Shown: piece after piece, positions 12,764-54,622 of the stretch | Position numbering within the stretch: the stretch's first letter is position 1 | How the letters are laid out: every line of letters begins with the position of its first letter | Assembly: GCF_001424875.1 (NCBI RefSeq) | Contig: NZ_LMCT01000072.1 | Coordinates: 378,106 to 442,105, forward strand | Reading direction: 5' to 3' | Source: Kitasatospora sp. Root107 | GTDB taxonomy: Bacteria > Actinomycetota > Actinomycetes > Streptomycetales > Streptomycetaceae | Length of the DNA stretch: 64,000 nt | Program-made: the position numbers and the translations under genes | Notes under the pieces: model-generated | Told to the model about the DNA's origin: nothing | Database searches by the model: none | The model's input: the letters and a program-made list of their open reading frames with translations, nothing else

Positions 12764-12864
12764 CTCTGGCTCCGTCGCCGGAGCTCGTCGTAAGGTGGCG
12801 AGATCGTGGTGGCGGGCACTGCGGCGGATGTCGCGCTGGCGACGGGGTGGGGCGGTGACCTGCG

Positions 12865-14436: not shown

Positions 14437-14459
14437 TGCCGTGCCCGGCACGGCACTAG
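14433..14459. terminator. Bidirectional hairpin terminator
   Basis: A 27-base palindrome (ctagtgccgtgcc / ggcacggcactag, arms 14433-14445 and 14447-14459) starts at the stop codon of the caspase-like gene and ends 17 bp before the stop of the convergent SDR gene. It can fold on either strand and probably separates the two transcription units. Confidence 0.8.
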
Positions 14460-14476
14460 GACCTCCGGACGGTGCG

Positions 14477-15235
14477 TCAGCGGGCGCCGCCGTTGACGTA
14501 GAGGGTCTGGCCGCTGACGTACGAGGCGTCGTCGCTGACCAGGAAGGCCACCACCGAGGCGATCTCCTCCGGCTGGCCGACCCGGCGCAGCGGGGTGCGC
14601 TCGGCGACCTGGGCCTGGTGGTCCTCGGCGGTGGCGCCGACGCGTTCGGCGGTGGCGGCGGTCATCGAGGTGGCGATGTAGCCGGGGGCGACCGCGTTGA
14701 CGTTGATGTTGTACGGGCCGAGCTCGATCGCCAGGGTGGCGGTCAGGCCCTGGATGCCGGCCTTGGCGGCGGCGTAGTTGGCCTGGCCGCGGTTGCCGAG
14801 GGCGGAGCGCGAGCTGAGCGAGACGATCTTGCCGTACTTCTGCTTGACCAGGTACTTCTGTGCCACGTGGCTGCAGTTGTAGGCGCTGGTCAGATTGACC
14901 GTCAGGACGGCGTCCCAGTCGGCCTTCGGCATCTTGAAGAACAGGTTGTCCCGGGTGATCCCGGCGTTGTTCACCAGGATGTGGATGGCTCCCAACTCCT
15001 CGACCACCGAGGCGAAGACGGCCTCCACCGCGTCGTAGTCGGCCACGTCGCAGCCGTACGCCCGCGCGCTGCCGCCCTTGGCGGTGATCGCGTCCACGGT
15101 GCCCTGCGCGCGCTCAGCGGAGAGGTCGACCACCGCGACGGTGGCGCCCTCCTCGGCGAGCCGCAGCGCGGTGGCCGCGCCGATGCCCTGCGCCGCACCG
15201 GTGACGACGGCGACCTTGCCTGCGAAACGAGTCAT
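14477..15235 (-). CDS. SDR-family 3-oxoacyl-ACP / 3-hydroxyacyl-CoA reductase (FabG-like)
   Basis: The 252-aa protein is a classical short-chain dehydrogenase: TGAAQGIG (12-19) for the dinucleotide, NNAG (89-92), catalytic Ser141/142, Tyr154 and Lys158 in YAAAK, and the C-terminal NGGAR. The Gly-rich loop and Asp at 37 favour NAD(H). In this operon with an acyl-CoA dehydrogenase and thiolase it probably acts on 3-ketoacyl or 3-hydroxyacyl-CoA in fatty acid or branched acyl degradation rather than in fatty acid synthesis. It starts 9 bp after the thiolase stop. Confidence 0.9.
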   Translation of the reverse strand: MTRFAGKVAVVTGAAQGIGAATALRLAEEGATVAVVDLSAERAQGTVDAITAKGGSARAYGCDVADYDAVEAVFASVVEELGAIHILVNNAGITRDNLFFKMPKADWDAVLTVNLTSAYNCSHVAQKYLVKQKYGKIVSLSSRSALGNRGQANYAAAKAGIQGLTATLAIELGPYNINVNAVAPGYIATSMTAATAERVGATAEDHQAQVAERTPLRRVGQPEEIASVVAFLVSDDASYVSGQTLYVNGGAR

Positions 15236-15244
15236 GACAGCTCC

Positions 15245-16432
15245 CTAGACGTTCTCGACGAGTACGGCGGTGCCCTGCCCGACACCGACACACATGGTGG
15301 CCAGCCCGCGCCGGGCGCCGGTCCGGTGCATCCGGTGCAGCAGGGTGGTGAGGATCCGGGCGCCCGAGCCGCCCAGCGGGTGACCGAGGGCGATCGCGCC
15401 CCCGGACGGGTTGACCAGCTCCGGGTCGAAGCCCAACTCCCGGACGCAGGCGAGCGCCTGGGCCGCGAAGGCCTCGTTGAACTCGGCCTCCTCGACGTCC
15501 TCGACCGCCCAGCCGGTACGGGCCAGCACCTTGCGGGTGGCGGGCACCGGGCCGATGCCCATCACGTCGGGGTGCACCCCGGCCGAGGCACCGGCCACGT
15601 AGCGGCCGAGCGGTTCGAGCCCGAGCTCGTGCAGCACCTCCTCGCTCACCAGCAGCAGCGCGGCCGCGCCGTCGTTCATCGGTGAGGCGTTGCCCGCCGT
15701 CACGGTGCCACCGGCCCGGAAGACCGGCTTGAGGGCGGCGAGGCGCTCCAGCGAGCTGTCCTCCCGGATGCTCTCGTCCTGGGTGACGGTCACGCCGTCG
15801 GCCCGCAGCACCGGCAGCAGTTCGGCGTCGAAGTGCCCGTTCTTCCGGGCGGCGGCGGCCCGTTGGTGGCTGCGCAGCGCGAACTCGTCCTGGTCCGAGC
15901 GGCTGACGCCGTACCTGGCGGCCACCTCCTCGGCGGTCTCGCCCATGCTCAGCACACCGTGCAACTCGCGCATCCGGGGGTTGGTGATCCGCCAGCCGAG
16001 CCGGGTGTCGAAGGTCTCCAGCTTGTGCGGCAGTGCCTCGTCGGGGCGCGGCAGCACGAACGGGGCGCGGCTCATCGACTCGCAGCCGCCCGCGACCACG
16101 ACCTCGGCCTCGCCGGAGCCGATCGCCCGGGCGGCGGTGGTGACGGCCTCGAGGCCGGAGGCACAGAGCCGGTTCACGGTGGCGCCGGGAATGCTCTCCG
16201 GCAGACCGGCCAGCAGTACGGCCATCCGGGCCGCGTTGCGGTTGTCCTCCCCGGCCTGGTTGGCGGCGCCCCAGTAGACGTCGTCGATCCGGGCCGGGTC
16301 CAACTGCGGTACGGAGTCGAGCAGTCCGCGCAGCACGGCGGCCGACAGGTCGTCAGGCCGGACGGACGAGAGGGCGCCGCGCAGCCGCCCGATCGGGGTG
16401 CGGCGAGCGGCGGCGAAGTAGACGGGACGCAC
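15245..16432 (-). CDS. Acetyl-CoA C-acyltransferase (thiolase)
   Basis: The 395-aa protein has all thiolase active-site elements: nucleophile Cys90 in [10 protein letters not shown], His351 in [14 protein letters not shown] and the second Cys381 in CVGVGQG. It would cleave 3-ketoacyl-CoA with CoA to acetyl-CoA and a shortened acyl-CoA (degradative type by length). The central loop with [11 protein letters not shown] is typical of the FadA/PcaF group. It lies between the acyl-CoA dehydrogenase (28 bp upstream) and the SDR (9 bp downstream), so the three form a beta-oxidation-like operon; a dedicated enoyl-CoA hydratase is absent here. Confidence 0.93.
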
Positions 16433-16460
16433 GTCGTTGGGCTCCTCAACTACTGGTTGA

Positions 16461-17609
16461 TTAGAAGGCGTTGACGCCGGTCAGCGAACGCCCGATGAGC
16501 AGCTTGTGGATCTGGCTGGTGCCCTCGTACAGGGTCATCACGCGGGCGTCGCGCAGGTACTTGCCGACCGGGTACTCGTCGATGAAGCCGTACCCGCCGA
16601 AGACCTGCAGCGCGTTGTTCGCGGCCCGGACGGCGGCCTCGCTGGCGTACAGCTTCGCCACCGAGGACTCGGTGGCGAACGGCAGCCCGCGGTCGATGTG
16701 GTCGGCCACCCGCCAGGTGAGCAGCCGGGCGGCGTCCAGGTCGACCGAGATGTCGGAGATCAGCTCCTGCACCAACTGGTAGGAGGCGATCGGCTTTCCG
16801 AACTGCTCGCGCTCCTTGGCATAGCCGACGGCGGCGTCCAGGCAGGCCTGGGCGATGCCGACACAGCCGGCCGCGACCGACATCCGGCCCTTGGCCAGCG
16901 CGGCCATCGCGACCGAGAAGCCCTTGCCCTCGGCGCCGAGCCTGGTACTGTCCGGCACCCGGACGGCGTCGAAGGTCAGCTCGGCGGTGGCCTGGCCGCG
17001 CAGGCCCAACTTGCCGTGGATCTCCCGGCGTTCGAGGCCAGGGGTGGCGGTCGGGACCAGGAAGGCGGTGATGCCCTGGTGACCGGGCCCGCCGGTGCGG
17101 GCGAAGACCAGCGCGACCTCGGCCCACGTCCCGTTGGTGATGAACATCTTGGCGCCGGTGATCAGCCAGTCCTCGCCGTCCCGGACCGCCCGGGTGGTCA
17201 GGTTGGCGGCGTCCGAACCGGTGCCTGGCTCGGTGAGAGCGAAGCAGCCGAGTGCCTCGCCTGAGGTCAGCCGGGGGAGCCAGTGCCGCTTCTGCTGCTC
17301 GCTGCCGTAGCTGTTGACCGACTTGGCCACTAGGCCGAGCGAGACCGAGACGATGCCGCGCACCGAGGAGTCGCCCCGGCCGAGCTCCTCCAGCACCAGG
17401 CAGTACGCCAGGTGGTCGCCGCCGCTGCCGCCGTACTCCTCCGGGATGGTCAGGCCGAGGAAGCCGACCTTGCCGAGTTTGCCGATGATCGCCCGGTCCA
17501 CCGACTCCGCGCGGTCCCAGTCGGCGGCGTACGGCACGATCTCGCGGTCGGTGAAGTCTGCGGCGAGCTGCTTGGCGGCGGCCTGCTCCTCGGAGAGCTC
17601 CAGGTTCAT
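16461..17609 (-). CDS. Acyl-CoA dehydrogenase
   Basis: The 382-aa protein shows both family signatures: [16 protein letters not shown] (FAD/substrate binding, about 123-138) and the C-terminal [20 protein letters not shown] block ending in LYEGTSQI, where Glu362 is the catalytic base. It would oxidise an acyl-CoA to the trans-2-enoyl-CoA, passing electrons to ETF. The motif [11 protein letters not shown] and position of the Glu fit the short/branched-chain group. It is the first gene of the operon; the ATG at 17609 follows GAGAGG. A dyad sequence lies directly upstream and a TetR gene is divergent. Confidence 0.93.
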
Positions 17610-41760: not shown

Positions 41761-42567
41761 ATGCAGCAAGCGAACTGGGTCCCCGCCGGCACCGACACCG
41801 AGAAGCCGAACGCCGCCCGGGTGTACGACTACTACCTCGGCGGCTCCCACAACTTCGAGGTCGACCGGGCGATGGCCCGGAAGGCGATGGAGTTCTGGCC
41901 CGAGCTGCCCGCCATCATGCGGGCCAACCGGGCCTTTCTGCGCCGGGCCGTGCAGCACCTCGCCGAACAGGGTGTCACCCGCTTCCTGGACATCGGCTCC
42001 GGCATTCCGACCTTCGGCCCGGTGCACGAGGTGGCCAGGGCGGTGAATCCGGACAGCCAGGTGGTCTACGTGGACCACGATCCGATCGCGGTCGCGCACA
42101 GCCGCCTGCTGCTCAAGGACGACCCGCACAGCGTGGTGGTCGAGGCCGACCTGCGCCAGGTCGAGGACCTGCTCGCCCGGCCCGAGGTGGCCGGGCTGCT
42201 CGCCGCGGGTGAGCCGGTCGGGCTGCTGATGGTCGCGGTGCTGCACTTCATCACCGACGGCGACGACCCGTACCGGCTGGTGCGGGTGCTCAGGGACGCG
42301 CTGCCGCCGGGCAGTGCGCTGGTGATCTGCCACGCCTCGCTGGAGGGCCGGCCGGACCAGGCCGGTGCGCACCAGGACCTGTACAAGCGCACCCCCACCC
42401 CGATCACGATGCGCAACCGCGCGGCGATCGGCGCCTTCTTCGACGGCTTCGAGCTGCTCGAGCCCGGGCTGGTCTACCTGCCCGAGTGGCGCCCCGAGGA
42501 CCCGGAGTCGGTCGGCCCGCACCCGGAGCGGATGACCGGCCTGTCAGGCGTCGGACTGCTGCCGTGA
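41761..42567 (+). CDS. SAM-dependent methyltransferase, DUF574/Methyltransf_19 family
   Basis: The 268-aa protein has the hallmark N-terminus of this streptomycete-expanded family, NAARVYDYYLGGSHNFEVDR, the SAM motif FLDIGSGIPT and VVYVDHDPIAVAHSR. Substrates are unknown; many genomes have dozens of copies, often beside regulators. ATG at 41761 is preceded by GTAGGGA. Its stop overlaps the start of the GGDEF-EAL gene (GTGA), so the methyltransferase and the c-di-GMP enzyme are made together. Confidence 0.9.
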   Translation: MQQANWVPAGTDTEKPNAARVYDYYLGGSHNFEVDRAMARKAMEFWPELPAIMRANRAFLRRAVQHLAEQGVTRFLDIGSGIPTFGPVHEVARAVNPDSQVVYVDHDPIAVAHSRLLLKDDPHSVVVEADLRQVEDLLARPEVAGLLAAGEPVGLLMVAVLHFITDGDDPYRLVRVLRDALPPGSALVICHASLEGRPDQAGAHQDLYKRTPTPITMRNRAAIGAFFDGFELLEPGLVYLPEWRPEDPESVGPHPERMTGLSGVGLLP

Positions 42568-44678
42568 CCGCAGGGTCGGACGGGGAGGGCCGGGTGGACG
42601 CTCCCACCTGGTTCCACCAGGAGTGGGAGCGGCTGCTGCGTGGTGGCCACGGCATGGCCGTGCACCCGGGCATCCTGAGCCGCCTGGTGTCCCGGACGGC
42701 CGTGCTGCTGCACCGGGCCCAGCACGAGGATCCGTTCCGGCCCGAGCTGGCCGGGCAGGCCGGTGCCCAGCTGGTGGACGCGCACTTCACCGACCCGGCC
42801 GTGCTGGCCAGGGCGGTCGAGCTGCTCCAGCTCGGCCCGGTCGGCGACGGCCGGGGCCCGGCGCTGTGCGGCGCCTTCGCGGCGGGCTGGGCGGAGGCCC
42901 TGCGGGAGCGGACCCTGCGCGAGCAGGAGGCGATCCGACTGGCCGCCGACACCGCCCGGCGGGAGGTGGAGAAGGCGCTACGGGAGTCGGAGAACAAGTT
43001 CCGCGCGCTGTTCGAGAGCGCCGCGATCGGGATCGGCATCGGGGACACCGACGGCAAGATCATCTCGGTCAACCGGGCGCTCGGAGAGATCTTCGGCACC
43101 GGCTCGATGGACATGACGGGCCGTCGGGTGGACGAGCTGGTGCACCCCGAGGACACCCCGGGCGTCTGGGAGGCGTACGAGGACCTGATCGCCGGGCGCC
43201 GGGAGTACTTCCAGTTCGACAAGCCGTACTACCGGCAGGACGGCGAGGTGGTCTGGACCCACCTGACCGTCTCGCTGATCCGGGACGACGAGGGCGTGCC
43301 GCTCTACCAGGTGGCCATGCTGGAGGACATCACCGACCGGTACCGGCTGCAGGAGCGGCTGCGGCACCAGGCCACCCACGACCCGCTGACCGGGCTGCCG
43401 AACCGGGTGGCCTTCTTCGAGCGGCTGGAGAAGCTGTTCGAGGAGCCGGAGCCCGGGGCCAGGTTCGGCCTCTGCTACGTGGACCTGGACGGCTTCAAGG
43501 TGGTCAACGACAGCCTCGGCCACGACACCGGCGACCAGCTGCTGGCCGCGGTGGCGCAGCGGCTCGAGACCGCGCTGACCCCGCTCGGCCACCTGGTGGC
43601 CCGGCTCGGCGGCGACGAGTTCGTGGTGCTGCTGGAGGACTGCCGGGGCGAGCAGGAGGCGGTGGCGGCCGCCAAGACGGTGCTGGCCGCGCTGGCCAGG
43701 CCGGTGCAGGTCGGCGACCACTCGCTGGCGGTCGGCGCCAGCGTCGGCGTGCTGGAGCGCCGGGTGGCCACCACCACGCCGGGCGCCGCGGTCCGGGCCG
43801 CCGACCTCACGCTGTACCGGGCCAAGGAGGCCGGGCGCGGCCGCTGGACGCTGTTCGACCCGAAGGAGAACGCCCGCGCGGTCAGCCGGTACGCGGTGTC
43901 GGTGCGGATGCCCGCCGCGCTGGACCGGGGCGAGTTCTTCATCGACTACCAGCCGCTCTGCTCGCTGGCCGACGGCTCGCTGGTCGCGGTCGAGGCACTG
44001 GTGCGCTGGCGGCACCCGCAGCTCGGGGTGCTCGGCCCGGACGAGTTCATCGGGGTGGCCGAGGAGACCGGCCTGATCATGCCGCTCGGCCGCTGGGTAC
44101 TGGAGCAGGCCTGCCGCCAGGCCACCGACTGGGTGCGGGAGTTCGGCCCGGACGCACCGCAGATCAACGTCAACCTGGCGGTCCGGCAGGCCCGCAACGC
44201 CGGGCTGGTCACCGATGTCGAGCGGATCCTGCGGAAGACCGGACTGCCGCCGGCCAAGCTCCAGTTGGAGATCACCGAGTCCACCGTGGTGGGCCCCGAG
44301 GACGAGGCGCTGAAGGCCCTGCACGGCGTACGCGACCTGGGCGTCTCGCTGGCGGTGGACGACTTCGGCACCGGCTGGTCCAACCTGGCCTACCTGCGGG
44401 ACCTGCCGGTCTCCTGCCTGAAGATCGCCGGCTCCTTCGTCGGCGACCTGCACGATCCGACCAAGGACGCGCACACCGGCTGGCGGATCGTCAGCGGGCT
44501 GGTCTCGCTGGCCCACACGCTCGGCCTGACCGTGACCGCCGAAGGGGTGGAGAGCGGTGCGGACGCCGAGCGGCTGCGGCAGATGGGCTGTGACTGGGCA
44601 CAGGGCTGGCACTTCGGCCGCCCGGTCCGCCCGGACGAGATCTCCCGGCGGATCGCCGAGGCGCGCCGCACCCCGTAG
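42564..44678 (+). CDS. PAS-GGDEF-EAL cyclic di-GMP protein
   Basis: 704 aa: an N-terminal helical region without recognised domain (1-140), a PAS sensor domain (about 143-265, ENKFRALFESAAIGIGI), a diguanylate cyclase domain with intact GGDEF at 349-353 and a phosphodiesterase domain with intact EAL at 477-479 (VAVEALVRWRHP), including DDFGTGWSNLAYLRDLP. It could both make and break c-di-GMP, like the RmdA/RmdB group that control streptomycete development. No membrane segment is seen, so it senses a cytoplasmic cue. The GTG at 42564 overlaps the methyltransferase stop; the glycan locus begins 330 bp downstream. Confidence 0.92.
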   Translation: MTAGSDGEGRVDAPTWFHQEWERLLRGGHGMAVHPGILSRLVSRTAVLLHRAQHEDPFRPELAGQAGAQLVDAHFTDPAVLARAVELLQLGPVGDGRGPALCGAFAAGWAEALRERTLREQEAIRLAADTARREVEKALRESENKFRALFESAAIGIGIGDTDGKIISVNRALGEIFGTGSMDMTGRRVDELVHPEDTPGVWEAYEDLIAGRREYFQFDKPYYRQDGEVVWTHLTVSLIRDDEGVPLYQVAMLEDITDRYRLQERLRHQATHDPLTGLPNRVAFFERLEKLFEEPEPGARFGLCYVDLDGFKVVNDSLGHDTGDQLLAAVAQRLETALTPLGHLVARLGGDEFVVLLEDCRGEQEAVAAAKTVLAALARPVQVGDHSLAVGASVGVLERRVATTTPGAAVRAADLTLYRAKEAGRGRWTLFDPKENARAVSRYAVSVRMPAALDRGEFFIDYQPLCSLADGSLVAVEALVRWRHPQLGVLGPDEFIGVAEETGLIMPLGRWVLEQACRQATDWVREFGPDAPQINVNLAVRQARNAGLVTDVERILRKTGLPPAKLQLEITESTVVGPEDEALKALHGVRDLGVSLAVDDFGTGWSNLAYLRDLPVSCLKIAGSFVGDLHDPTKDAHTGWRIVSGLVSLAHTLGLTVTAEGVESGADAERLRQMGCDWAQGWHFGRPVRPDEISRRIAEARRTP

Positions 44679-45005: not shown

Positions 45006-45839
45006 ATGAGCATCACGCTGCCCCCCAACGTCCTCCCCTACCCGACCCGTGACGACGGCCGGCCCAGGCGCCGCGCCACCGACCGGCTGCCCGCCGACCG
45101 GCCGATGCGCCGGGCCGAGGACGGGATCAGGACCAGGCACTCGGTCAGCCTGGTCGTCCCCGCCCAGAACGAGGCCCGCAACATCCCGTGGGTGTTCGAG
45201 CAGATCCCGAACTGCGTGGACGAGGTCATCCTGGTGGACGGCTCCTCCACCGACGCCACCCTGGCGGTGGCCGAGCACTGCCTGCCCACCGTCCACAGCG
45301 TCCAGCAGAGCGCACCCGGCAAGGGAAATGCGCTCCGGACCGGCTTCGCCGCAGCCGGCGGCGAGTACGTGGTGATGATGGACGCCGACGGCTCGATGTG
45401 GCCCGGCGAGATCCCGCACTACCTGCACTTCCTGGACCACGGCTACGACTTCGTCAAGGGCTCGCGGTGCATCGCCGGCGGCGGCTCGCTGGACCTGACC
45501 CGGATCAGGGCGCTCGGCAACCTGGCGTTGCTCGCTGTGGTGAACCGGCTCTACCAGACCAAGCTCACCGACCTCTGCTACGGATTCTGCGCCTTCCGCC
45601 GCAGCTTCCTGGACCAACTCGACCTGCGCTCGGCCGGGTTCGAGATCGAGGCCGAGATGATCGCGCACGCGCTGCGGTCCGGCCTGCGGATCGCGGAGGT
45701 GCCGAGCCTCGAACTCCCTCGCCGTAGTGGCCGTTCGCACCTGCACGCCGTCTCGGACGGCCGCCGGGTGCTGCGGACGTTGCTCGCCGAACGTCCTGGC
45801 GGCAGTGGAACGGCCCACCACGCCACGAGGGAGCGGTGA
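45006..45839 (+). CDS. Glycosyltransferase family 2 (polyprenyl-phosphate type)
   Basis: The 277-aa GT-A enzyme has SLVVPAQNEARNI, EVILVDGSSTDATL and the metal motif VVMMDADGS, with GKGNALRTGF typical of dolichol-phosphate-mannose/undecaprenyl-phosphate sugar transferases. It has no membrane helices, so product release needs a partner. It would make a lipid-linked sugar donor at the inner membrane face. First gene of the glycan operon; its stop overlaps the next start region (GTGATG). Confidence 0.88.
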   Translation: MSITLPPNVLPYPTRDDGRPRRRATDRLPADRPMRRAEDGIRTRHSVSLVVPAQNEARNIPWVFEQIPNCVDEVILVDGSSTDATLAVAEHCLPTVHSVQQSAPGKGNALRTGFAAAGGEYVVMMDADGSMWPGEIPHYLHFLDHGYDFVKGSRCIAGGGSLDLTRIRALGNLALLAVVNRLYQTKLTDLCYGFCAFRRSFLDQLDLRSAGFEIEAEMIAHALRSGLRIAEVPSLELPRRSGRSHLHAVSDGRRVLRTLLAERPGGSGTAHHATRER

Positions 45840-47137
45840 TGAACGGCACCGACCGGCGCACCGCAACGGCCTGCCCCTGCCCCGCCGCCCGAGACTCGCT
45901 CTACACCCCTGTCCACGTGGTCGAACTGGACCTGGCCGAACCCGGTGAGCTCCGCTCGCCCGGGGGCACCGGGCCGGCCACTCCGGACGGCCGCGTGTTG
46001 GCGTTGGTGCGGCTGCACGGACACCCGCTCGGACTGGTCACCGCCACCGGCAGCGCCGACGATCCGGTCGGTCTGCGCCGGGCGCTGGTCGAGGCCGCTT
46101 TCAGCGAGATCCGCATCACCGCACACCAGTTGACCACCGCGACGATCAGGGCGCCCCTCAGTCGGGTCGGCGGCGTCCGGCCGTCAGCGGAACCGCCCAG
46201 GATCAGCGTCGTGATCGCCACCCACAACCGTCCCGAGCTGCTCCGCCAGTGCCTGGACTCCGTCCTGCGGATCGACAGCCCGCAGTACGAGGTGCTGGTC
46301 GTCGACAACGCCCCGGCCGGGGATGACGCGAAGACCCTGATCCGCGAGCGGTACGCCGACCGGGTCCGCTACCTGCGCGAGCCGGTAGCGGGCCTGGCCC
46401 GAGCCCACAATCTCGGACTGGCCGCCGCCCGGGGCGAGTTGATCGCCTTCACTGACGACGACACGCTGGTCGACCGGCACTGGCTGAGCTCCCTGGTCGC
46501 GGCCTTCGCCGACGATCCCGCTGCCGGCTGCGTGACCGGCCTGATCCTGCCCGCCGAGCTGCAGACCGCGGCGCAGGCCGCGCTCCAGCAGCACGGCGGC
46601 TACGACAAGGGCTTCAACCCGCGCCGCTGGTCGCTCGACCTGCCGCCCGGTGACCCGCTGTTCCCGTTCACCGCAGGGCAGTTCGGCTCTGGCGCCAACA
46701 TGGCCTTCCGGACCCGACTGCTGCGCACGCTGGGCGGTTTCGACCCGGCCACCGGCGTCGGCACCCCCGCGCACGGCGGCGACGACCTGCTGGCCTTCTT
46801 CCGGATCGTCACCGCCGGGCACGTGCTCAGCTACCAGCCGGACGCCATCGTCTGGCACCGGCACCGCCGGACCCCCGACGCGCTGCCCGCCCAGCTCTAC
46901 GGCTACGGCGCGGGCCTCGGCGCCTACCTGGCCGCCGCCGTCGTCGCCGAGCCCCGGCTGCTGCCCGCACTACTGCGCCGGATCCCCGGCGGGCTGCGGC
47001 ACGCCGCCGCACAGGCGAGGAGCCGCACCCTGCCGTCCGGCCAACGGTCCACCCGGCTGGCCGCGTTGGAGCTGCGCGGGATGCTGTACGGGCCGGTCGG
47101 CTACCTCCGCTCGCTGCGCCAGGCGAGGACGGAGTGA
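45839..47137 (+). CDS. Glycosyltransferase family 2 with N-terminal accessory domain
   Basis: The 432-aa protein has an N-terminal domain of about 110 residues (VHVVELDLAEP..., LALVRLHGHPLGLV) seen before actinobacterial GT2 domains, then a GT-A core: ISVVIATHNRPELLRQCLDS, VLVVDNAPAGDD and LIAFTDDDTLVD (metal-binding Asp triad). It probably adds a sugar to a growing surface glycan. The ATG at 45839 is preferred over the adjacent GTG 45836 because of spacing from GAGGGAG (45827-45833). It overlaps the preceding stop. Confidence 0.88.
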   Translation: MNGTDRRTATACPCPAARDSLYTPVHVVELDLAEPGELRSPGGTGPATPDGRVLALVRLHGHPLGLVTATGSADDPVGLRRALVEAAFSEIRITAHQLTTATIRAPLSRVGGVRPSAEPPRISVVIATHNRPELLRQCLDSVLRIDSPQYEVLVVDNAPAGDDAKTLIRERYADRVRYLREPVAGLARAHNLGLAAARGELIAFTDDDTLVDRHWLSSLVAAFADDPAAGCVTGLILPAELQTAAQAALQQHGGYDKGFNPRRWSLDLPPGDPLFPFTAGQFGSGANMAFRTRLLRTLGGFDPATGVGTPAHGGDDLLAFFRIVTAGHVLSYQPDAIVWHRHRRTPDALPAQLYGYGAGLGAYLAAAVVAEPRLLPALLRRIPGGLRHAAAQARSRTLPSGQRSTRLAALELRGMLYGPVGYLRSLRQARTE

Positions 47138-47189
47138 GCGTGATGGCCAGCTTCGTCACCGGGACCCGCGCCGCAGGCTGCGGCTGCCC

Positions 47190-47451
47190 GCAGCCGCCGC
47201 CCTGCCAGTGCTCCTGCCGCACGCTGCTCCGCGCCCGGCTCCGGGCCGCCGGTTCGGCCGAGCCGCTGCCGCACCATGGCCATGTGCCCGCCCAACCTGG
47301 TGCTCGGCGTCGCCGTCGACGTCTGCCGGGCCCGGCGCGCGATGCGCTGGGTGATCGGCCTGCAGGCCGCGCTGCTGGTCGTCGTCCTGTCGCTCACCGT
47401 CTGGCTGCTCCCGCTGTACGGCCTGGCCGGCGTCGGCCTGCCCGGAACGCC
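47190..47451 (+). pseudogene. Remnant of a polysaccharide flippase (Wzx/MATE-like)
   Basis: No intact gene fills the 376 bp between two glycosyltransferases. From 47282 one frame reads MCPPNLVLGVAVDVCRARRA and continues with a hydrophobic helix (WVIGLQAALLVVVLSLTVW) and LLPLYGLAGVGL, which matches the late helices of streptomycete oligosaccharide flippases. Just upstream, in another frame, LPVLLPHAAPRPAPGRRFG may be an earlier part. The helix is then lost in a frame change near 47451. So the flippase of this locus is decayed, and only a C-terminal fragment remains. Confidence 0.55.
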
Positions 47452-47513
47452 TCGCCCGGAACGGCGCTGCCCCGGGAGACGGCCCCCCGGACGACGAAGG
47501 GAAGGCGAGGACG

Positions 47514-48536
47514 ATGACCGACCGACTCGACCCGGTCCGCGAGGGGACCGGTGAGCAGCTGACGGGGCATCGGCTCACCCTGAGCGTGGTGGTCTGCTCG
47601 TACACCATGGCCCGCTGGCCCGATCTGGTCGCCGCCATCAGCTCGCTGCAGCGCCAGTCGAGCCCCGCCGACGAAGTGCTGCTGGTGGTCGACCACTGCC
47701 CCGAACTGGCCGTCCGCGCGGCCGGGGTACTGGCCGGCGTGCGGGTGGTGGCGAACCGGGAACAGGCTGGTCTGTCCGGCGCCCGGAACACCGGGGTGGC
47801 GCTGGCCAACAGTGACGTGGTGGCCTTCCTGGACGACGACGCCACCGCCGACCCGGACTGGACCGAACGGCTGCTGGCCGGGTACCTGGACGCCCGGGTG
47901 CTCGGCGTCGGCGGCCTGGTCAGGCCGCGCTGGGAGACCGCCCGCCCGCCCTGGTTCCCGCCCGAGTTCGACTGGGTGGTCGGCTGCTCCTACCGGGGGA
48001 TGCCGGAACAGGCCGCCAGGGTACGGAACTTCATCGGCGCCAACATGTCCTTCCGGCGCGCCGAACTGGTGGCCGCCGGCGGCTTCCGCCCCGACCTCGG
48101 CCGGATCGGCAGCCGGCCGCTGGGCTGCGAGGAGACCGAGCTGTGCATCCGGCTGGCGGCCGGTCGGCCGGAGGCCGAACTGCGCTACGAACCGGCCGCC
48201 GGGGTCAGCCACCGGGTCCCCGAAGGGCGGACCAACTGGGCGTACTTCCGGGCCCGTTGCTATGCCGAGGGCCTCTCCAAGGCGGTGGTCGCCCGGTACA
48301 CCGGGCGCGGCCCGGCGCTGGCCAGCGAACGCCGCTACCTGCGCAGCACGGTGCCGCGCGGGCTGGCCAGGGCGATCGGCCCGGGCGGCGGCGGCCCGCG
48401 CGAGTTCGCGGCCCTCGCGCTGGGCGTGGCCACCACCCTGGCCGGCTACACCAGCGGCCGGTTCGGCCGGCCCGGCGCCCTCGGCCGACTGGTCGGCCCG
48501 GTACGGCGGGCCAGGGACCCGGGCGGTGCGCCATGA
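47514..48536 (+). CDS. Glycosyltransferase family 2
   Basis: The 340-aa GT-A enzyme shows LSVVVCSYTMARWPDLVAAI, DEVLLVVDHCPELA and DVVAFLDDDATAD with the metal-binding Asp cluster, and GCEETELCIRL for the catalytic region (the typical ED-x-E/D). It is of the type that builds capsule or exopolysaccharide. ATG at 47514 follows GAAGG. Its stop overlaps the deacetylase start as ATGA. Confidence 0.9.
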   Translation: MTDRLDPVREGTGEQLTGHRLTLSVVVCSYTMARWPDLVAAISSLQRQSSPADEVLLVVDHCPELAVRAAGVLAGVRVVANREQAGLSGARNTGVALANSDVVAFLDDDATADPDWTERLLAGYLDARVLGVGGLVRPRWETARPPWFPPEFDWVVGCSYRGMPEQAARVRNFIGANMSFRRAELVAAGGFRPDLGRIGSRPLGCEETELCIRLAAGRPEAELRYEPAAGVSHRVPEGRTNWAYFRARCYAEGLSKAVVARYTGRGPALASERRYLRSTVPRGLARAIGPGGGGPREFAALALGVATTLAGYTSGRFGRPGALGRLVGPVRRARDPGGAP

Positions 48537-49345
48537 CCGTCGTCCCGGTGTTCCTTTACCACTCGGTGTCCGACGACCCACCGTCCTGGATCGCACCGTT
48601 CACCGTCACCCCGCACGTCTTCGCCGAGCAACTGGACCGGATCGCCGACGCCGGTCGCACCATCGTCCCGCTGCACCGCCTGGTGGCGGCGATCCGCGGC
48701 GGCCCGGCGCTGCCCGCCGACTCGGCGGTGCTCACCTTCGACGACGGCTTCGCCGACTTCTACTGGACGGTGGCCCAGCTGCTGACCGAACGCGGCCTGC
48801 CCGCCACGCTGTTCGTCACCACCGGCGCCGTCCACCCGCCGGGCGGGGAGGCGGCCGGCAGCCTGCTGCCCCCGGCCCCGATGCTGAGCTGGCGTCAGGT
48901 GGTCACGCTGGACGCCTGCGGCGTGGAGATCGGTGCGCACACCCGGACCCACCCGCAGCTGGACACCCTGTCGGGCCGCTGGCTGGCCAGCGAGATCGTC
49001 GGCTGCCGCCAGGAGTTGGAGGATCTGCTCGGCCACCCGGTGACCTCCTTCGCGTACCCGCACGGCTACTCCAGCGCCACCGTCCGCCGCCAGGTCGCCG
49101 AGGCCGGTTTCAGCTCTGCCACCGCGGTGCTGAACGCCTTCAGCTCGGGCAACGACGACCCGTTGCGGATCGCCCGGCTGATGGTGCGGGCGGACACCAC
49201 GCCCGAGCAGTTCCGGAGCTGGACACGGGGCGAGGGCGCCCCGGTGGCGCCGCTCCCGGAGCGCCTGCGGACCAAGGGCTGGCGGCTCTACCGCCGGGCC
49301 AGGGCCGCAGTCGGCAGCCCGGTCGGCGGGCCGCCGGAGATCTGA
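48533..49345 (+). CDS. NodB-domain polysaccharide deacetylase
   Basis: The 270-aa protein has CE4 motifs: FLYHSV at the N-terminus, TFDDGF (Asp70 base, Asp71 metal), GAHTRTHPQL (His136 and His140 metal ligands) and FAYPHGY. It would remove N- or O-acetyl groups from the glycan. No signal peptide is visible at the chosen ATG, so it could act in the cytoplasm on lipid-linked intermediates or be exported by another route. It is the last gene of the plus-strand half of the glycan locus. Confidence 0.9.
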   Translation: MTVVPVFLYHSVSDDPPSWIAPFTVTPHVFAEQLDRIADAGRTIVPLHRLVAAIRGGPALPADSAVLTFDDGFADFYWTVAQLLTERGLPATLFVTTGAVHPPGGEAAGSLLPPAPMLSWRQVVTLDACGVEIGAHTRTHPQLDTLSGRWLASEIVGCRQELEDLLGHPVTSFAYPHGYSSATVRRQVAEAGFSSATAVLNAFSSGNDDPLRIARLMVRADTTPEQFRSWTRGEGAPVAPLPERLRTKGWRLYRRARAAVGSPVGGPPEI

Positions 49346-49363
49346 CCCCGGGTCAGGCGAGCG

Positions 49364-49522
49364 TCAGTGCCGCCAGACCAGCAGGTAGGCCAGGGTGACG
49401 GGCAGTCGGACCGGCGTCGGCAGGGCCAGTGCCCCCAGCGCGACCCAGCCGGAGGCGGCGAGCAGCAGCGAGACCGTCAGTTTCGAGGTCGCCAGTTTCG
49501 ACGTGAAGGCCTTCACCACCAT
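49364..49522 (-). CDS. 52-aa membrane peptide
   Basis: A small gene beginning MVVKAFTSKLATSKLTVSLL with one or two hydrophobic segments (about 15-33 and 38-50) and ending VWRH. The ATG at 49522 has GAGGAGG 8 bp upstream; that ribosome site overlaps the stop of the GT-C-like gene, so it is coupled to it. Its codon pattern and strong Shine-Dalgarno support translation. It may be a subunit or regulator of the membrane glycosyltransferase. Confidence 0.65.
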   Translation of the reverse strand: MVVKAFTSKLATSKLTVSLLLAASGWVALGALALPTPVRLPVTLAYLLVWRH

Positions 49523-49535
49523 CGGTGACACCTCC

Positions 49536-51329
49536 TCAGGCCGCGTTCGGGACGAAGCGGTAGACCACCGCGTCGTCGTTGCGGTAGACCACGGTGAACC
49601 GGGGCGCCCCGTCCACCGCGGTGCCGAGCCGGGCCACCGTGTCGGCCGGCAGTACGCCGGTCAGGTAGCACTCGGCGGCCTGGGCCCGGTTCAGGAGCAG
49701 GTAGGCGGGTGTGCCGGCCTCGGTGGAGTCGGCGGCCCGGGTCAGCCCGGCCAGGGGGTCGGCGAGCAGCAACTGCTGGGTCTCCCGGCTCTCCTCGGAG
49801 AGCTGGATGCGCGGGTGCAGGTCGTACTCGGCGGCGCCGCCGGGCAGGTTGCCGGTGACCGAGACGATCACCGCGCCGGGCGGGGCGAGCGCGATCATCC
49901 GGCGGGCGGCGGTGACCTCGCCTGGGGTGAAGTAGTTCATGTCCTCCTTGCTGTAGTAGCCGAAGAACAGGCCGCCCAGCAGGGCCAGTGCCACCGCCAT
50001 GGAGGTGAGCGAGCGCAGTCCCGGCAGCCGCCCGGGGCGCAGCAGGGCGGCGATCAGGAAGGCGCAGGCGGGCAGCGCGAACAGGTAGACCCGGAAGACC
50101 ATCTCGCCGCCGTAGCTGTTCGCGGCGAGCAGTGGCATCGGCGCCACCGCCAGCAGCGGCAGCGCGGTCCGGCGGACCCAGGGACGCCGCCAGACCGCCG
50201 CCAGCGCGAGCAGGACCACCGTCGCCGACAGTCCGCGGTCCACCCAGGCCACCACCACCTGGCCGGGCGCGGCGGCGCCGAGGCCGACCAGCCCGGAGAG
50301 GATGTTGCTCTCCGGCGCGGTCAGCCCGGCCACGAAGTCCGACAGGTTCTCGGAGAGGAACGGCCGGGCCACGGTGGCGTACCAGACACCGTTCAGCACC
50401 AGCAGCCCGGCCAGCGCGGGCAGCACCGCGCGCCGGTTGCGGCGGGGCAGGGCGAGGGCGGTCAGCGCGCAGAGCAGCATCAGCGGGGTGAGCTGGTGGG
50501 AGACCACGATCGCGGCCTCCAGCAGCAGGATCGCCGGCAGCCGGCCGCGGCTCGGCGCGGTCCGGGCCGGGGCCAGCGAGGGCCGGGTGCCGCCCGGACC
50601 CGTACCGCCGTTCGGGAGTTGGCCGGCCACCAGCACCAGCACCGTGAGGAACAGCAGGAAGGCGAAGGCCTGCGGGGCGAAGTAGTCCTGGCCGACCCAG
50701 GCGCAGCAGTAGTAGATCCACAGCGCGCCCCAGACCAGCCGCCGTTCGGTGCTGAAGGTCCGGTAGAGCAGCAGCAGCGGCGCCAGCAGCAGGGCGTTGG
50801 TGGCAGCGGGGGCCCAGGCGGCGTAGCCGAGCGCCGACTCCATGCCGGTGACCCGCAGGAACAGCCCGTTCAGCACGAAGAAGCCGGGCCACTGGTTGTA
50901 GATGTCGAAGCCGCCGGCGTGGGGCACCGGGCCGTCGTTGCGGATCATCGCGTCGAGCACCGCGATGTGCTTCCAGGCCCAGGCGTACCGCAGGCTCGGG
51001 TACAGCAGGCTCGGGGTGGCGTGGATCATCGCGATCAGCCCGAGCAGATACGCCGTCAGCCACCCGGTGCGGACCCGGCGGTCACGCAGCGCCAGCCAGA
51101 AGCCGACGGTCAGCAGCACCACCGCGATCCAGTACAGCGGCGGCAGCACCTGGAGCAGCCCCAGGTCGTTCATCGCGTCCAGGTCGACCGAGCGCAGCGA
51201 GAGCAGCCAGAGCAGCAGCGCGAGCGGCAGCACCAGGTACGGCGCGAGCCTCCCGGCCCGCCGGCAGGTCGCTGACCAGGCGTCAGCGGCGTCCTTCCCG
51301 GTACCGGCGCCGTCCGCGGCGGCTAGCAC
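49536..51329 (-). CDS. Polytopic membrane protein, GT-C glycosyltransferase-like
   Basis: 597 aa with about twelve membrane helices, beginning with a cytoplasmic tail of 28 residues and ending in a 120-residue extracytoplasmic domain. Features fit GT-C lipid-sugar-dependent transferases: an acidic pair in the first outer loop (SLRSVDLDAMND), FDIYNQWPGFFVLNG and YYSKEDMNYFTPGEVTAARR after the last helix. It would move a sugar from a polyprenyl carrier to an acceptor outside the membrane. The GTG start lacks a strong Shine-Dalgarno. It lies 28 bp after the monooxygenase-like gene. Confidence 0.75.
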   Translation of the reverse strand: MLAAADGAGTGKDAADAWSATCRRAGRLAPYLVLPLALLLWLLSLRSVDLDAMNDLGLLQVLPPLYWIAVVLLTVGFWLALRDRRVRTGWLTAYLLGLIAMIHATPSLLYPSLRYAWAWKHIAVLDAMIRNDGPVPHAGGFDIYNQWPGFFVLNGLFLRVTGMESALGYAAWAPAATNALLLAPLLLLYRTFSTERRLVWGALWIYYCCAWVGQDYFAPQAFAFLLFLTVLVLVAGQLPNGGTGPGGTRPSLAPARTAPSRGRLPAILLLEAAIVVSHQLTPLMLLCALTALALPRRNRRAVLPALAGLLVLNGVWYATVARPFLSENLSDFVAGLTAPESNILSGLVGLGAAAPGQVVVAWVDRGLSATVVLLALAAVWRRPWVRRTALPLLAVAPMPLLAANSYGGEMVFRVYLFALPACAFLIAALLRPGRLPGLRSLTSMAVALALLGGLFFGYYSKEDMNYFTPGEVTAARRMIALAPPGAVIVSVTGNLPGGAAEYDLHPRIQLSEESRETQQLLLADPLAGLTRAADSTEAGTPAYLLLNRAQAAECYLTGVLPADTVARLGTAVDGAPRFTVVYRNDDAVVYRFVPNAA

Positions 51330-51357
51330 GGGGGCAGCTCGGGCCGCCCCGGCCGGT

Positions 51358-52575
51358 TCACCGGACGGCCTCCGCGACGGCGGCGCAGATCCGTTGGGAG
51401 GCGAAGCCGGTGCCGCAGACGAACCGCATCAACGGGCCGAAGGTGGCCGCAGCCGCCAGCCCGGTGAAGTACAGGCCGGGCACCGAGGACTGGAAGGTCT
51501 GGTCCAGCCGGGGCGCGCCTTCGATCCGGCGTAGCCCGCGCCGCAGTTCGGGTCCGAGCAGGCCAAGACGGTCGACGTCCACCCGGTAGCCGGTGGCGGC
51601 CAGCACGTGGTCGGCATCCAGCACCTCGGTGCCGCCGCCGGGCCGGTGCAGGTCCAGCCTGACCTGCCCGGCGGACTCCTGGACGGAGCCCAGTCGGTGG
51701 CCGGTGAGCAGCCGGACCCGGCCCTCCACCCGGTCCCGCAGCCACCAGGCGCCGGAAGGACCGAGCACGGTGCGGACCAGGTGCAGCCTGGTCCGGTCCG
51801 GCAGGTGCCGGAAGACGGCGGGTGCGCGGCTGAACGCGAACAGCGACCAGCCGGGCCCAAGCGGCGAACCCGGTTTGACCAGCCGGCCGGTCAGCGCCCG
51901 GTCGGCGTTGCGGTCGGCCTCCGGCGGGGTGCCGAACAGCAGCGTGTCCGTCCTGGCCACCACGGTCGGCTCGGCCCCTGCCTCGTGCAGCAGCGCCGCG
52001 CTCTCCAGCGCGGACTGCCCGGCGCCCAGCACCACCACCCGCCGGCCGGCGAACCGGGTCAGGTCCCGGTGCTCGGAGGAGTGCGAGACCAGTCCCGCCT
52101 CGGCGAGCGGCGCCAACTCCCGGGGCAGGTGCGGGAACGTGCCCAGGCCGGTGGCCACGACCACCTGACGGCTGGTGAACTCCTCGCCGTCGGCCAGCTC
52201 GATCCGGAAACCGGTCCGCCGGGCGTCGATCCGCTGCACCGCAGTGCGCTCGAGCGCGGGCACGCAGCGCTCCTGGAACCAGAGGCCGTACCGGATGAAC
52301 TCCCCGATCGGGACGGGGTACAGATCGCCGCCGGTGACCCGGCCGTCGAAGGCCCGGAAGTCGTCCAGCCGGTGCAGCTCGGCCGGGTCGGAGATGGAGG
52401 AGGCCGAGGGCGTGGACTTGAGGTACATCCCGGCGGGCATCCGGGACCGCCAGCTCTCCATCGGCTCGCCGAAGACCCGCAGCGGCACCCGGCGCCCGCG
52501 CAGGTGGGCGGCGGCGGCCAGCCCGTACGGGCCCGCCCCGACCACGGTGACCGGCACCGCGTCGGCGGGACTCAC
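51358..52575 (-). CDS. FAD/NAD(P)-binding oxidoreductase, flavin monooxygenase-like
   Basis: The 405-aa protein has two Rossmann motifs: VVGAGPYGLAAAAHL (FAD, 12-26) and VVLGAGQSALESA (NADPH, 182-194), and the linking ATGLGTFPHLP sequence of class B flavin monooxygenases or ornithine-hydroxylase-like enzymes. It resembles proteins that oxygenate N or S atoms or act as lysine/ornithine hydroxylases. GTG at 52575 has GGGAAGG upstream; the longer frame is not supported. It heads a minus-strand operon with the GT-C-like gene and the small peptide. Confidence 0.85.
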   Translation of the reverse strand: MSPADAVPVTVVGAGPYGLAAAAHLRGRRVPLRVFGEPMESWRSRMPAGMYLKSTPSASSISDPAELHRLDDFRAFDGRVTGGDLYPVPIGEFIRYGLWFQERCVPALERTAVQRIDARRTGFRIELADGEEFTSRQVVVATGLGTFPHLPRELAPLAEAGLVSHSSEHRDLTRFAGRRVVVLGAGQSALESAALLHEAGAEPTVVARTDTLLFGTPPEADRNADRALTGRLVKPGSPLGPGWSLFAFSRAPAVFRHLPDRTRLHLVRTVLGPSGAWWLRDRVEGRVRLLTGHRLGSVQESAGQVRLDLHRPGGGTEVLDADHVLAATGYRVDVDRLGLLGPELRRGLRRIEGAPRLDQTFQSSVPGLYFTGLAAAATFGPLMRFVCGTGFASQRICAAVAEAVR

Positions 52576-52848
52576 GAGGGCCTTCCCGATTCGGTACGGC
52601 AGGTGGTCAACAGACGGTTGGTCAACACTCGGCGCCCTCCTCGGACGGAGCACCCCTCAACCCAGGGTGCACCCGTGTAGCCGACCGCGAACACCCCCCA
52701 TCGGGTCACCGCCGGTGCCGCTGTGTACTCGTACGCTCCTGCACTGGCCCGATCCGCTCCGAACGCGCGAGAATTGTCCTGACCGGCCCGGTGCGGGGAC
52801 GGGGGCATCGCCCGTCCGGAGTCGGACTGCACCAGCGATGAGGCTCTC

Positions 52849-53988
52849 ATGCCGCAAGCCCGGATCGAGCCGGACCGCGCGACCCCCGCCCTGCTGGTGA
52901 AGATCGGGCACTACCCGCAGCACCACGGCGGGGTCGGGGTGATCCGTACCCTCGGCCGGCTGGGTGTCCCGGTCTACGCCATGGTCGAGGACCGCTGGAC
53001 GCCGGCAGCGCTCTCCCACTACCTCACCGGTGCCTTCGTCCGCCGCAGCGACGGTTCGGAGGAACCGGACGCGCTGCTGGCCGTGCTGCTGGAGATCGGC
53101 GCCGCGATCGGCCGCCCGAGCGTGCCGGTGGCCACCGACGACGAGGCGGCCCTGCTGCTGGCCGAGTACGCCGAGCCGCTCTCCCGGTACTTCCTGCTCC
53201 CGCCGGTGCCGCCCGCGCTGCCCCGGCGGCTGGCCAGCAAGGCCGGGCTGTTCGAGCTGTGCCGCCGGTACGGCGTGCCGAGCCCGGCGGCCTGGGCACC
53301 GCAGGAGTACCGGGACCTGCTGGCGGTGGGCCGTGAGCACGGCTACCCGCTGGTGCTGAAGAACCTGGAGGCGTGGACCAGACTGCGGGCACCCGCAGTC
53401 GGGCACACCACGGTGGTGCACGACGAGGCCGAGCTGCGGGAGGTCTGTCCGCCGGGCCCGGTGCCCTCGGTGCTGGTCCAGGAGTACCTGCCGCCGGAGC
53501 AGGCCGAGGACTGGATCACCCACCTGTACTGCGGCCGGGACGGCGCAGCACCGCAGGTCTTCACCGGCCGCAAACTCCGCTCCTGGCCGCCGGGCGCCGG
53601 GGTCACCACCCGGGCGCAGTCGCTGCCCAACCGCGAACTCGCGGCGCTGGCCGGCGAGTTCTGTGTCGGGATCGGCTACCACGGGGTGGCCGACCTGGAC
53701 TGGCGGCTGGACCGGCGGGACGGCCAGTACAAGCTGGTCGACTTCAACCCGCGCACCGGGGCGCAGTTCCGGCTGTTCCAGAGCACCGGCGGGGTGGACG
53801 TGGTGCGGGCCCTGCACCTGGACCTGACCGGCCGTCAGGTACCGGCGGGTCGGCTGCCGCAGGACGTGCTGCCCCGGGTCGGCACCGAACGAAGCTGGCT
53901 CTGCCGGGACGACCCGCTGCCCGCGTTCGGCGAGGCGGTCCGCTTCACCGGCACGGTGGCGGAGCGGCTGCGCCGGGCGGTGCGCTGA
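52849..53988 (+). CDS. ATP-grasp carboxylate-amine ligase
   Basis: The 379-aa protein has an N-terminal Rossmann-like pre-ATP-grasp region (ALLVKIGHYPQHHGGVGVIR), ATP lid YPLVLKNLE, and metal-binding VDFNPRTGAQFRLF; VLVQEYLPPEQAEDWITH is also typical of D-aspartate ligase-like ATP-grasp enzymes. It would join a carboxylate to an amine (for example an amino acid to a sugar acid or peptide) using ATP. It is divergent from the monooxygenase-like gene and completes the glycan locus, hinting that the product carries an amide-linked group. Substrate unknown. Confidence 0.85.
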   Translation: MPQARIEPDRATPALLVKIGHYPQHHGGVGVIRTLGRLGVPVYAMVEDRWTPAALSHYLTGAFVRRSDGSEEPDALLAVLLEIGAAIGRPSVPVATDDEAALLLAEYAEPLSRYFLLPPVPPALPRRLASKAGLFELCRRYGVPSPAAWAPQEYRDLLAVGREHGYPLVLKNLEAWTRLRAPAVGHTTVVHDEAELREVCPPGPVPSVLVQEYLPPEQAEDWITHLYCGRDGAAPQVFTGRKLRSWPPGAGVTTRAQSLPNRELAALAGEFCVGIGYHGVADLDWRLDRRDGQYKLVDFNPRTGAQFRLFQSTGGVDVVRALHLDLTGRQVPAGRLPQDVLPRVGTERSWLCRDDPLPAFGEAVRFTGTVAERLRRAVR

Positions 53989-53992
53989 CTCC

Positions 53993-54622
53993 TCAGCTCA
54001 CGAGTTCGGCCAGCGGGATGGCGTGGTTGGTGTGCTCGACCTTTGCGCGCAGGTACCGGACGTTGCTGGCGGAGACGTGCACGCCGGTGGGGACCCGCTC
54101 GGCCACGTCGATGCCGAGGGCGGTCAGTTGGGCGGCCTTGTCGGGGTTGTTGCTGAGCAGCCGGATGCCGGTGGCGCCGAGGGTGCGGAGCATCTGGGCG
54201 GCGGCGGTGTAGTCGCGGCCGTCCTCGGGGAGGCCGAGGGCGGTGTTGGCGGCGTACGTGTCGAGGCCCTGGTCCTGGAGCTGGTAGGCGTCGAGCTTGT
54301 TGTAGAGGCCGATGCCGCGTCCCTCCTGGCGGAGGTAGAGCAGGTAGCCGCCGGCCCCGGCGATCCGCTCGACGGCCTCGCGCAGCTGCGGGCCGCAGTC
54401 GCAGCGGGCCGAGCCGAACACGTCGCCGGTGAGGCACTCGGAGTGCAGCCGGACCAACGGCGTCCGGTCTCCGGGCTCGCCGATCCTGAGCGCCAGGTGC
54501 TCGGCGCCGTCGGTCAGGCCGTGGAAGGTGAAGACCTCGGCGTCGACCCGGTAGCCGTCCGGGAATACCAGGGGGATCTGGACGTTCGACCGTACCGTCG
54601 CGGGGCTCAGCTGATCCGCCAT
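53993..54622 (-). CDS. ribA: GTP cyclohydrolase II
   Basis: 209 aa with all GCH2 landmarks: zinc ligands Cys63, Cys74 and Cys76 in SECLTGDVFGSARCDCG, and YLRQEGRGIGLYNKL for GTP binding and catalysis. It opens GTP to the first riboflavin intermediate. It is a stand-alone RibA (no RibB fusion). It diverges from the oxidoreductase gene and converges with the ATP-grasp gene. ATG at 54622 has GGAGG 7 bp upstream. A possible role is to supply flavin or a pyrimidine precursor beyond the main rib operon. Confidence 0.93.
   Translation of the reverse strand: MADQLSPATVRSNVQIPLVFPDGYRVDAEVFTFHGLTDGAEHLALRIGEPGDRTPLVRLHSECLTGDVFGSARCDCGPQLREAVERIAGAGGYLLYLRQEGRGIGLYNKLDAYQLQDQGLDTYAANTALGLPEDGRDYTAAAQMLRTLGATGIRLLSNNPDKAAQLTALGIDVAERVPTGVHVSASNVRYLRAKVEHTNHAIPLAELVS

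Follow-up and report, generated by a model that had tools for sequence, protein, structure and literature searches.

We analysed a stretch of 64,000 nucleotides from Kitasatospora sp. Root107 (contig NZ_LMCT01000072.1, positions 378,106 to 442,105), hereafter called the window, in which positions 45006 to 53988 hold a cluster of genes predicted to build and decorate a surface glycan. An initial annotation had read from the letters alone three GT2 glycosyltransferases, a NodB-type deacetylase, a GT-C-like membrane protein, a flavin monooxygenase-like enzyme and a D-aspartate-ligase-like ATP-grasp enzyme, arranged as two converging operons plus a divergent ligase gene. A check of the open reading frames found all seven genes open at the coordinates below, and catalytic motifs are kept in homologues. 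Remnants of two further genes, absent from that annotation, were also recognized. The features are as follows, with the handles used below:

GT2a, 45006–45839, plus strand: polyprenyl-phosphate sugar synthase-type GT2 (AglJ/PpgS-like); PF00535, 77 bits
GT2b, 45836–47137, plus strand: GT2; nearest NCBIfam model MftF, 117 bits, under its cut-off
Flippase remnant (Wzx/MATE-like), 47143–47443, plus strand: blastn blocks against the full-length gene of the Kitasatospora region L024
GT2c, 47514–48536, plus strand: GT2; closest model AglG glucuronosyltransferase, 202 bits (cut-off 440)
NodB, 48533–49345, plus strand: NodB-type polysaccharide deacetylase; PF01522, 84.9 bits (cut-off 23.1)
Remnant of a transmembrane (TM)-GH16 gene, 49376–49498, minus strand: 41 codons of the N-terminal TM part, 85% identity
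GTC, 49536–51329, minus strand: GT-C-like membrane protein of 597 aa with ten hydrophobic segments
FMO, 51358–52653, minus strand: flavin/NADPH-dependent oxygenase-like protein; PF13738, PF07992 and PF13434 above cut-off
ATPg, 52849–53988, plus strand: ATP-grasp carboxylate-amine-type ligase, by predicted fold and a D/E-x-N-x-R motif

The plus-strand operon ends at 49345 and the minus-strand pair of GTC and FMO at 49536, with ATPg divergent from FMO; these coordinates bear out the layout of two converging operons and a divergent ligase gene.

GT2a, GT2b and GT2c match the Pfam GT2 family at 71–92 bits. For GT2a the AglJ model (TIGR04182) ranks first, at 122 bits, below the equivalog cut-off of 325; no hydrophobic (TM) segment was found in this protein, and its DAD motif is kept in 58/58 readable homologues (for all motif counts, every readable homologue was recounted, with identical sequences set aside). 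A DDD motif is kept in all 53 readable homologues of GT2b and in all 63 of GT2c, for which AglG ranks first. NodB shows the Pfam family match together with the TFDDG and HxxxH (HTRTH) motifs of NodB/CE4 enzymes, as well as FAYPHG, and T-x-DDG is found in 69/70 readable homologues. No segment of NodB, FMO or ATPg was hydrophobic enough to pass the cut-off applied. In GTC, the motif VGQDYF is kept in 59/64 readable homologues (five unreadable), and a Pfam scan of five GTC relatives gave one stray match (E 0.037). Neither a Wzy polymerase nor an initiating phosphosugar transferase was among the nine window frames scanned against Pfam. The ratios of nonsynonymous to synonymous substitution rates (dN/dS) against L024 were 0.28–0.60 for the seven genes and 0.25 for the neighbouring ribA; since these values match what is expected of genes under constraint, the seven genes appear to be still constrained.

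The two remnants mark genes that this strain has lost. Between GT2b and GT2c, about 967 bp of a flippase gene are missing by comparison with L024, and its ends remain (47143–47443). Relatives of this flippase score below the cut-offs of the Polysacc_synt/MatE models (L001, 23.0 bits against 28.2; L012, 24.7 bits against 24.9). In the gap where the operons converge, 41 codons are left of a gene whose L024 counterpart codes for a TM stretch and a GH16 domain (PF00722, 79 bits). A paralogous locus in partial decay is present elsewhere in the genome (L102; contig 39, positions 1–17000); it has a flippase gene without stops, GTC, TM-GH16, FMO and GT2b, with GT2a and NodB as fragments. No ligase match was found in this second locus; the window holds the only ATPg of the genome. 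The gene contents suggest that the deleted flippase and GH16 functions may be supplied from contig 39, the two half-sets complementing each other. Judged from the contigs alone, collapse of the assembly is unlikely to be the source of the two deletions, because the contig-39 flippase is 51–55% identical to that of L001 and the contig-39 GH16 protein 46% identical to that of L024.

A ligase scan of reference genomes gave 12 loci, from Streptacidiphilus, Streptomyces, Kitasatospora, three actinobacterial metagenome-assembled genomes (MAGs) and one Bradyrhizobium. GT2a, GT2c, NodB, GTC and FMO accompany the ligase in eight of them (L001, L003–L006, L008–L010), seven of which also have GT2b, and the core genes are common to Streptacidiphilus, Streptomyces and two of the actinobacterial MAG loci. 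Beyond these, 80 further regions were mapped; the 27 comparison regions from outside Kitasatospora were chosen because glycan genes were seen there. The Kitasatospora set comprises 27 ligase regions, i.e. 26 from 25 other genomes and the window, in which a part was scored as present on a tblastn match at 1e-6, a score that does not prove an intact gene. All nine parts (GT2a, GT2b, flippase, GT2c, NodB, GTC, FMO, ATPg and GH16) are present in 20/27 of these regions, each of the 20 having a higher-identity GH16. Flippase matches were obtained in 24/27 regions and GH16 matches likewise in 24/27, that of L022 at 34% only. Among the incomplete regions, GT2a and GT2b were not found in L022 by tblastn, L018 holds just the ligase, as a second copy in a genome that has a complete region in L017, and in L020 nothing but the ligase and, at 31%, NodB was matched. 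Fragments of the ligase lie beside a stop-free FMO in L118 (9247–9369) and L119 (8714–9044). Since the GT genes are fragmented in L118 and were not found in L119, decay seems to affect the locus as a whole. A gene for UDP-glucose dehydrogenase is located downstream of four Streptomyces loci (L004–L006, L008). Five (L003–L006, L008) carry an APH-type kinase gene between FMO and ATPg (e.g. L005, 8814–9869), and in L114, L116 and L117, which have no ligase, APH-type kinase genes lie near GTC genes.

Co-occurrence was counted in a sample of 200 Streptomycetaceae genomes at E thresholds of 1e-20 for ATPg, 1e-60 for FMO and 1e-30 for GTC, and an ATPg with a best E below 1e-140 was termed close type; an additional full copy in G041 and seven partial rows (G003, G066, G119 and four of G074) were not counted. 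ATPg was found in 100 genomes, FMO in 97 and GTC in 94. ATPg and FMO occur together in 91 genomes (Fisher p ~6e-38; such tests ignore shared ancestry), and ATPg and GTC in 83. GTC is present in 70 of the 71 genomes with a close-type ATPg, and FMO lies within 1 kb of 94/114 ATPg places and within 5 kb of 98/114. The genes thus co-occur far beyond chance, the opposite of the lack of co-occurrence in other genomes that the initial annotation had named as grounds for giving up its proposal.

These counts also bear on the possibility that the product of FMO and ATPg is a diffusible small molecule, e.g. a hydroxamate or a dipeptide, and that the two are only hitch-hikers in glycan loci. ATPg-FMO pairs without nearby glycan-gene matches are common among the Streptomyces regions fetched, as this would predict, but the near-constant company of GTC in close-type genomes argues against it. 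Moreover, six genomes (G013, G072, G112, G142, G192 and G196) have the close-type pair and GTC on different contigs or over 1.5 Mb apart, and in 6/6 of these the GTC region has kept the operon GT2a-GT2c-NodB-flippase-GTC. Since the pair also recurs in polysaccharide loci with other glycosyltransferases, we regard the hitch-hiker explanation as quite improbable.

Flippase and GTC are both matched in 71 loci, including a few duplicates; in 10 of these they share one stop-free frame. Of the 10, L052 was set aside, GT2c lying in between. In the remaining nine (L009, L103–L109 and L112) the linkers, of 348–702 bases, keep the frame and have a third-position GC content of 0.87–0.96, as coding sequence would; these frames therefore look like real fusion proteins. 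Because the two proteins are fused in these loci, GTC may act on what the flippase delivers; the fusion is the best evidence for this.

FMO gave Pfam matches to Pyr_redox and Lys_Orn_oxgnase above cut-off. The best-scoring structures for its predicted model include the N-hydroxylases PvdA (Z 29.8), KtzI (28.8) and DesB (28.4), aligned over about 360 residues, with the flavin monooxygenase 4usr (28.9), YpdA (28.4) and the flavin monooxygenase 4a9w (28.2) close behind PvdA. Class B N-hydroxylating monooxygenases are described, in the available text, by the NADPH motif GXGQSA and the FAD motif GXGXXN (PMC12498188). The former is present as GAGQSA in the window protein and as GXGQSA in 71/84 readable homologues, the deviating ones having GXGQAA, GXGSSA, GAGQSG or GGRQSA. 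As to the latter, Asn is found in 0/82 readable homologues, all of which have GAGPYG or GAGPFG. The motif LKS is kept in 79/83 readable homologues, and the N-terminal part gave no usable sequence alignment to N-hydroxylases. FMO is thus like PvdA, KtzI and DesB in its GXGQSA motif and, with the near-ties just named, in a near full-length fold match, but unlike them in its FAD motif and its context in a glycan locus. The hydroxylation of an amine by the flavoenzyme, suggested in the initial annotation, agrees with the NADPH motif and the N-hydroxylase-like fold, but the FAD motif is of another kind. Because this class motif is absent, FMO is not assigned to the N-hydroxylases; to judge from the model, it may work like one.

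Alternatively, FMO could be a flavin or disulphide reductase of the YpdA/TrxR kind with a role in redox housekeeping, NodB and ATPg alone modifying the glycan. A YpdA-type NCBIfam model does match, at 61.5 bits against a cut-off of 339.9, and the fold scores tie, but the alignment to YpdA covers 309 residues versus about 360 for the N-hydroxylases. The GXGQSA motif of most homologues and the tight linkage to ATPg also argue against a reductase, an assignment that we consider highly improbable.

ATPg gave no Pfam match above cut-off, and at E values up to 1 only a weak match to CPSase_L_D2. Its model (mean predicted local distance difference test score, 85) shows the full ATP-grasp fold over the whole protein, the structures found including 2pn1 (Z 26.2; 296 residues aligned, 3.8 Å) and PurK (Z 25.0). 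Members of the ATP-grasp superfamily have an acidic Mg2+ ligand in a motif with Asn and Arg (D/E-x-N-x-R); this motif is present in 88/88 readable homologues of ATPg, as DFNPR in 82, and with the fold it places ATPg in the superfamily. The label "D-aspartate-ligase-like" is not supported: no Pfam or NCBIfam match points to it, and no reference sequence was compared. An amino-acid ligase, 3vot, was reached by VIA-align (Z 23.4) but sits among PurK and biotin carboxylase rows, and it was rejected as a guide to function. The nearest structures to the model do not tell the substrate, and an amino acid as the decoration added by ATPg is a guess.

FMO and ATP-grasp ligases are also found together outside the loci described above. 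In nine Streptomyces regions with a divergent type of ATPg, a NodB match lies 4–7 kb away in 9/9 and FMO adjoins in 8/9; GT4 and Wzy-type genes are present in L083, the one scanned in detail. The Bradyrhizobium locus L012 has FMO and ATPg among Poly_export, Wzy_C, Wzz and MatE genes, together with a deacetylase gene, and a frame beside ATPg (11640–12728) gave a weak APH-type kinase match. Plasmid records from Mesorhizobium, Granulicella (two loci) and B. barranii show FMO either adjacent to an ATP-grasp gene or separated from it by a single gene; ATPg itself matched 52 plasmid records, with identity below 30% in all 30 matches listed. The ATP-grasp proteins of Granulicella match the ATPg profile weakly (E 1e-8 to 6e-7) and their FMOs strongly (E 1e-126 to 1e-128), which suggests that FMO partners with more than one ATP-grasp subfamily. 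The pair may therefore represent, as far as these gene neighbourhoods indicate, a two-enzyme glycan-decorating module common to rhizobia, an acidobacterium and Streptomycetaceae.

Taken with the conserved gene set and order, these observations lead us to propose, with about an even chance of being right, that the locus encodes a conserved pathway whose product is a surface oligosaccharide, lipid-linked and decorated. The steps would be as follows: i) GT2a would put the first sugar on polyprenyl monophosphate, ii) GT2c and GT2b would extend the glycan, GT2c probably adding a uronic acid, iii) a cytosolic NodB would take off an N-acetyl group and leave a free amine, iv) FMO and ATPg, acting as a pair, would attach an amide- or hydroxamate-type decoration to the glycan in the cytosol, FMO oxidising an amine, most likely by N-hydroxylation, and ATPg linking carboxyl to nitrogen, at the sugar amine or else at the uronic acid, v) the Wzx/MATE-like flippase would turn the lipid-linked product outward, vi) GTC would use the flipped product to glycosylate or polymerise an envelope acceptor, and vii) the membrane-anchored GH16 enzyme would trim the product. 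FMO needs NADPH and ATPg needs ATP. Since these cofactors are in the cytosol and the three modifying enzymes have no hydrophobic segments, NodB, FMO and ATPg are probably cytosolic, and the order of deacetylation followed by modification within the cell is plausible on the same grounds.

A number of observations weigh against this pathway. Neither GT2a nor GT2c reaches the equivalog score of AglJ or AglG, and neither Pfam nor the PDB sequences gave a match for the putative GT-C protein of the window. The fold scores of FMO tie between N-hydroxylases, other monooxygenases and the bacillithiol disulphide reductase YpdA, and its FAD motif departs from that of the class. FMO is the sole missing part in three Kitasatospora loci (L026, L027 and L030), and five distant actinobacterial ATPg regions (L089–L093), two of them incomplete, gave no FMO match; nor was an ATP-grasp gene seen in 3/7 of the plasmid FMO neighbourhoods viewed, from 14 records with an FMO match. 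Few genes other than a GT8 gene lie near the second Granulicella pair, which is in no clear polysaccharide locus. Genomes with only a divergent ATPg show no link to GTC (13/29), and 11 of the 94 GTC genomes are without ATPg. GT2b and GH16 were not detected in the six split operons, and in 61/71 loci flippase and GTC share no frame. Outside the family, ligase matches are few and mostly remote, both in Actinomycetota (46/396 genomes, 10 of the 46 in the family of the window, including the window itself) and around Bradyrhizobium (9/299). The neglect of shared ancestry in the Fisher tests also has to be counted here.

The chemistry of the decoration can be read in two ways. In one, modelled on the Campylobacter HS:2 capsule, ATPg would join a small amine, perhaps one that is phosphorylated or N-oxidised, to the carboxyl group of the uronic acid by an amide bond; NodB would then serve charge or transfer, and the APH-type kinase would phosphorylate the amine. 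There is a precedent in C. jejuni Cj1438, whose ATP-grasp domain amidates capsule glucuronic acid (PMC11800379), i.e. an ATP-grasp ligase places an amide on a growing surface polysaccharide as would be the case here. The AglG-like character of GT2c, the UDP-glucose dehydrogenase genes downstream of L004–L006 and L008, and the APH-type kinase genes at the pair in L003–L006 and L008 and beside the Bradyrhizobium ATPg all agree with this reading. However, the domain of Cj1438C is TupA-like and fused to a GT2, the available text mentioning no flavoenzyme, whereas a Pfam scan at E values up to 1 found no TupA-type domain in ATPg. Moreover, tblastn of the Kitasatospora regions L014–L039 gave no UDP-glucose dehydrogenase match and an APH match in L016 only. 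Amidation of a uronic acid is accordingly possible but on the unlikely side. In the other, FMO would N-hydroxylate an amine that ATPg then acylates or couples to the uronic acid, the two forming a portable hydroxamate module. We hold this to be rather improbable; if true, the product would be a glycan with N-hydroxy-amide, and hence iron-binding, surface groups, none of which was found in the literature searched.

The proposed lipid-linked pathway resembles several known systems in part. In the FlmF2/NaxD/FlmK-type transfer of galactosamine from undecaprenyl phosphate, a GT2, a cytosolic NodB-like deacetylase and then a membrane transferase act in turn, with lipid A as the target. This order of enzymes is, by description, similar to that proposed here, but no ATP-grasp enzyme or flavoenzyme is known to take part. 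Haloferax AglJ and AglG add sugars to dolichol phosphate (PMC3871713), and the corresponding models rank first for GT2a and GT2c. According to the parts of the literature available, the Agl pathway (AglJ, AglG, AglR, AglB/AglS) loads sugars on a polyprenyl (dolichol) phosphate, flips them and transfers them outside, the same scheme as proposed here. Unlike that system, the present locus is bacterial, its scores fall below the cut-offs, and it adds a deacetylase, a flavoenzyme, an ATP-grasp enzyme and GH16. The gpgSDF operon of Pseudomonas aeruginosa, with a glycosyltransferase, a deacetylase and a predicted flippase, acts on a lipid-linked amino sugar and makes glucosamine-phosphatidylglycerol (PMC12713373); it differs in that its three genes include, in the text available, no ATP-grasp, flavoenzyme or GT-C gene and its product is a lipid. 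Another actinomycete glycan cluster with a deacetylase and a FAD monooxygenase is found in the Wzx-type exopolysaccharide clusters (wps) of Actinoplanes missouriensis (PMC13390465), but there the monooxygenase is of the PheA/TfdB type, an aminotransferase is present and no ATP-grasp enzyme is named in the main text.

The initial annotation had supposed an amino-acid-decorated glycan that was not described before. No description of this gene combination was found in the part of the open-access literature covered, but "not described" overstates the case as regards the principle: amidation of a capsule by an ATP-grasp enzyme is known from Campylobacter. Export of decorated lipid-linked glycans is likewise known already, and the locus would be a variant of it. 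What the data make concrete is the question of how a cell-surface sugar is modified by a flavoenzyme together with an ATP-grasp ligase, in a glycan system that, defined by its ligase and GTC matches, is found in 83/200 sampled Streptomycetaceae genomes. The flippase/GT-C fusion offers a handle on the substrate of the GT-C protein.

The surroundings of the locus were also inspected. The GC content of the window is about 73% (0.69–0.77 in each 2-kb block), the locus is no outlier among these blocks, and a tRNA search of the window found none; neither an island recognizable by composition nor a tRNA-linked island is thus indicated. An Rfam scan of 44–55 kb gave zero matches at gathering score, a search of the locus for sigma-70-type promoters found none, and the single terminator-like site at the locus did not score above shuffled sequences. 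Next to ATPg, at 53993–54622, lies a stand-alone GTP cyclohydrolase II gene (ribA), matched in 19/27 Kitasatospora regions; the presence of a gene for a flavin precursor beside a flavoenzyme gene may be coincidence. Directly upstream of GT2a, a frame at 42486–44678 is matched in 22/27 Kitasatospora ligase regions. Its product is presumably a PAS-GGDEF-EAL protein, and a link of the locus to cyclic-di-GMP is possible.

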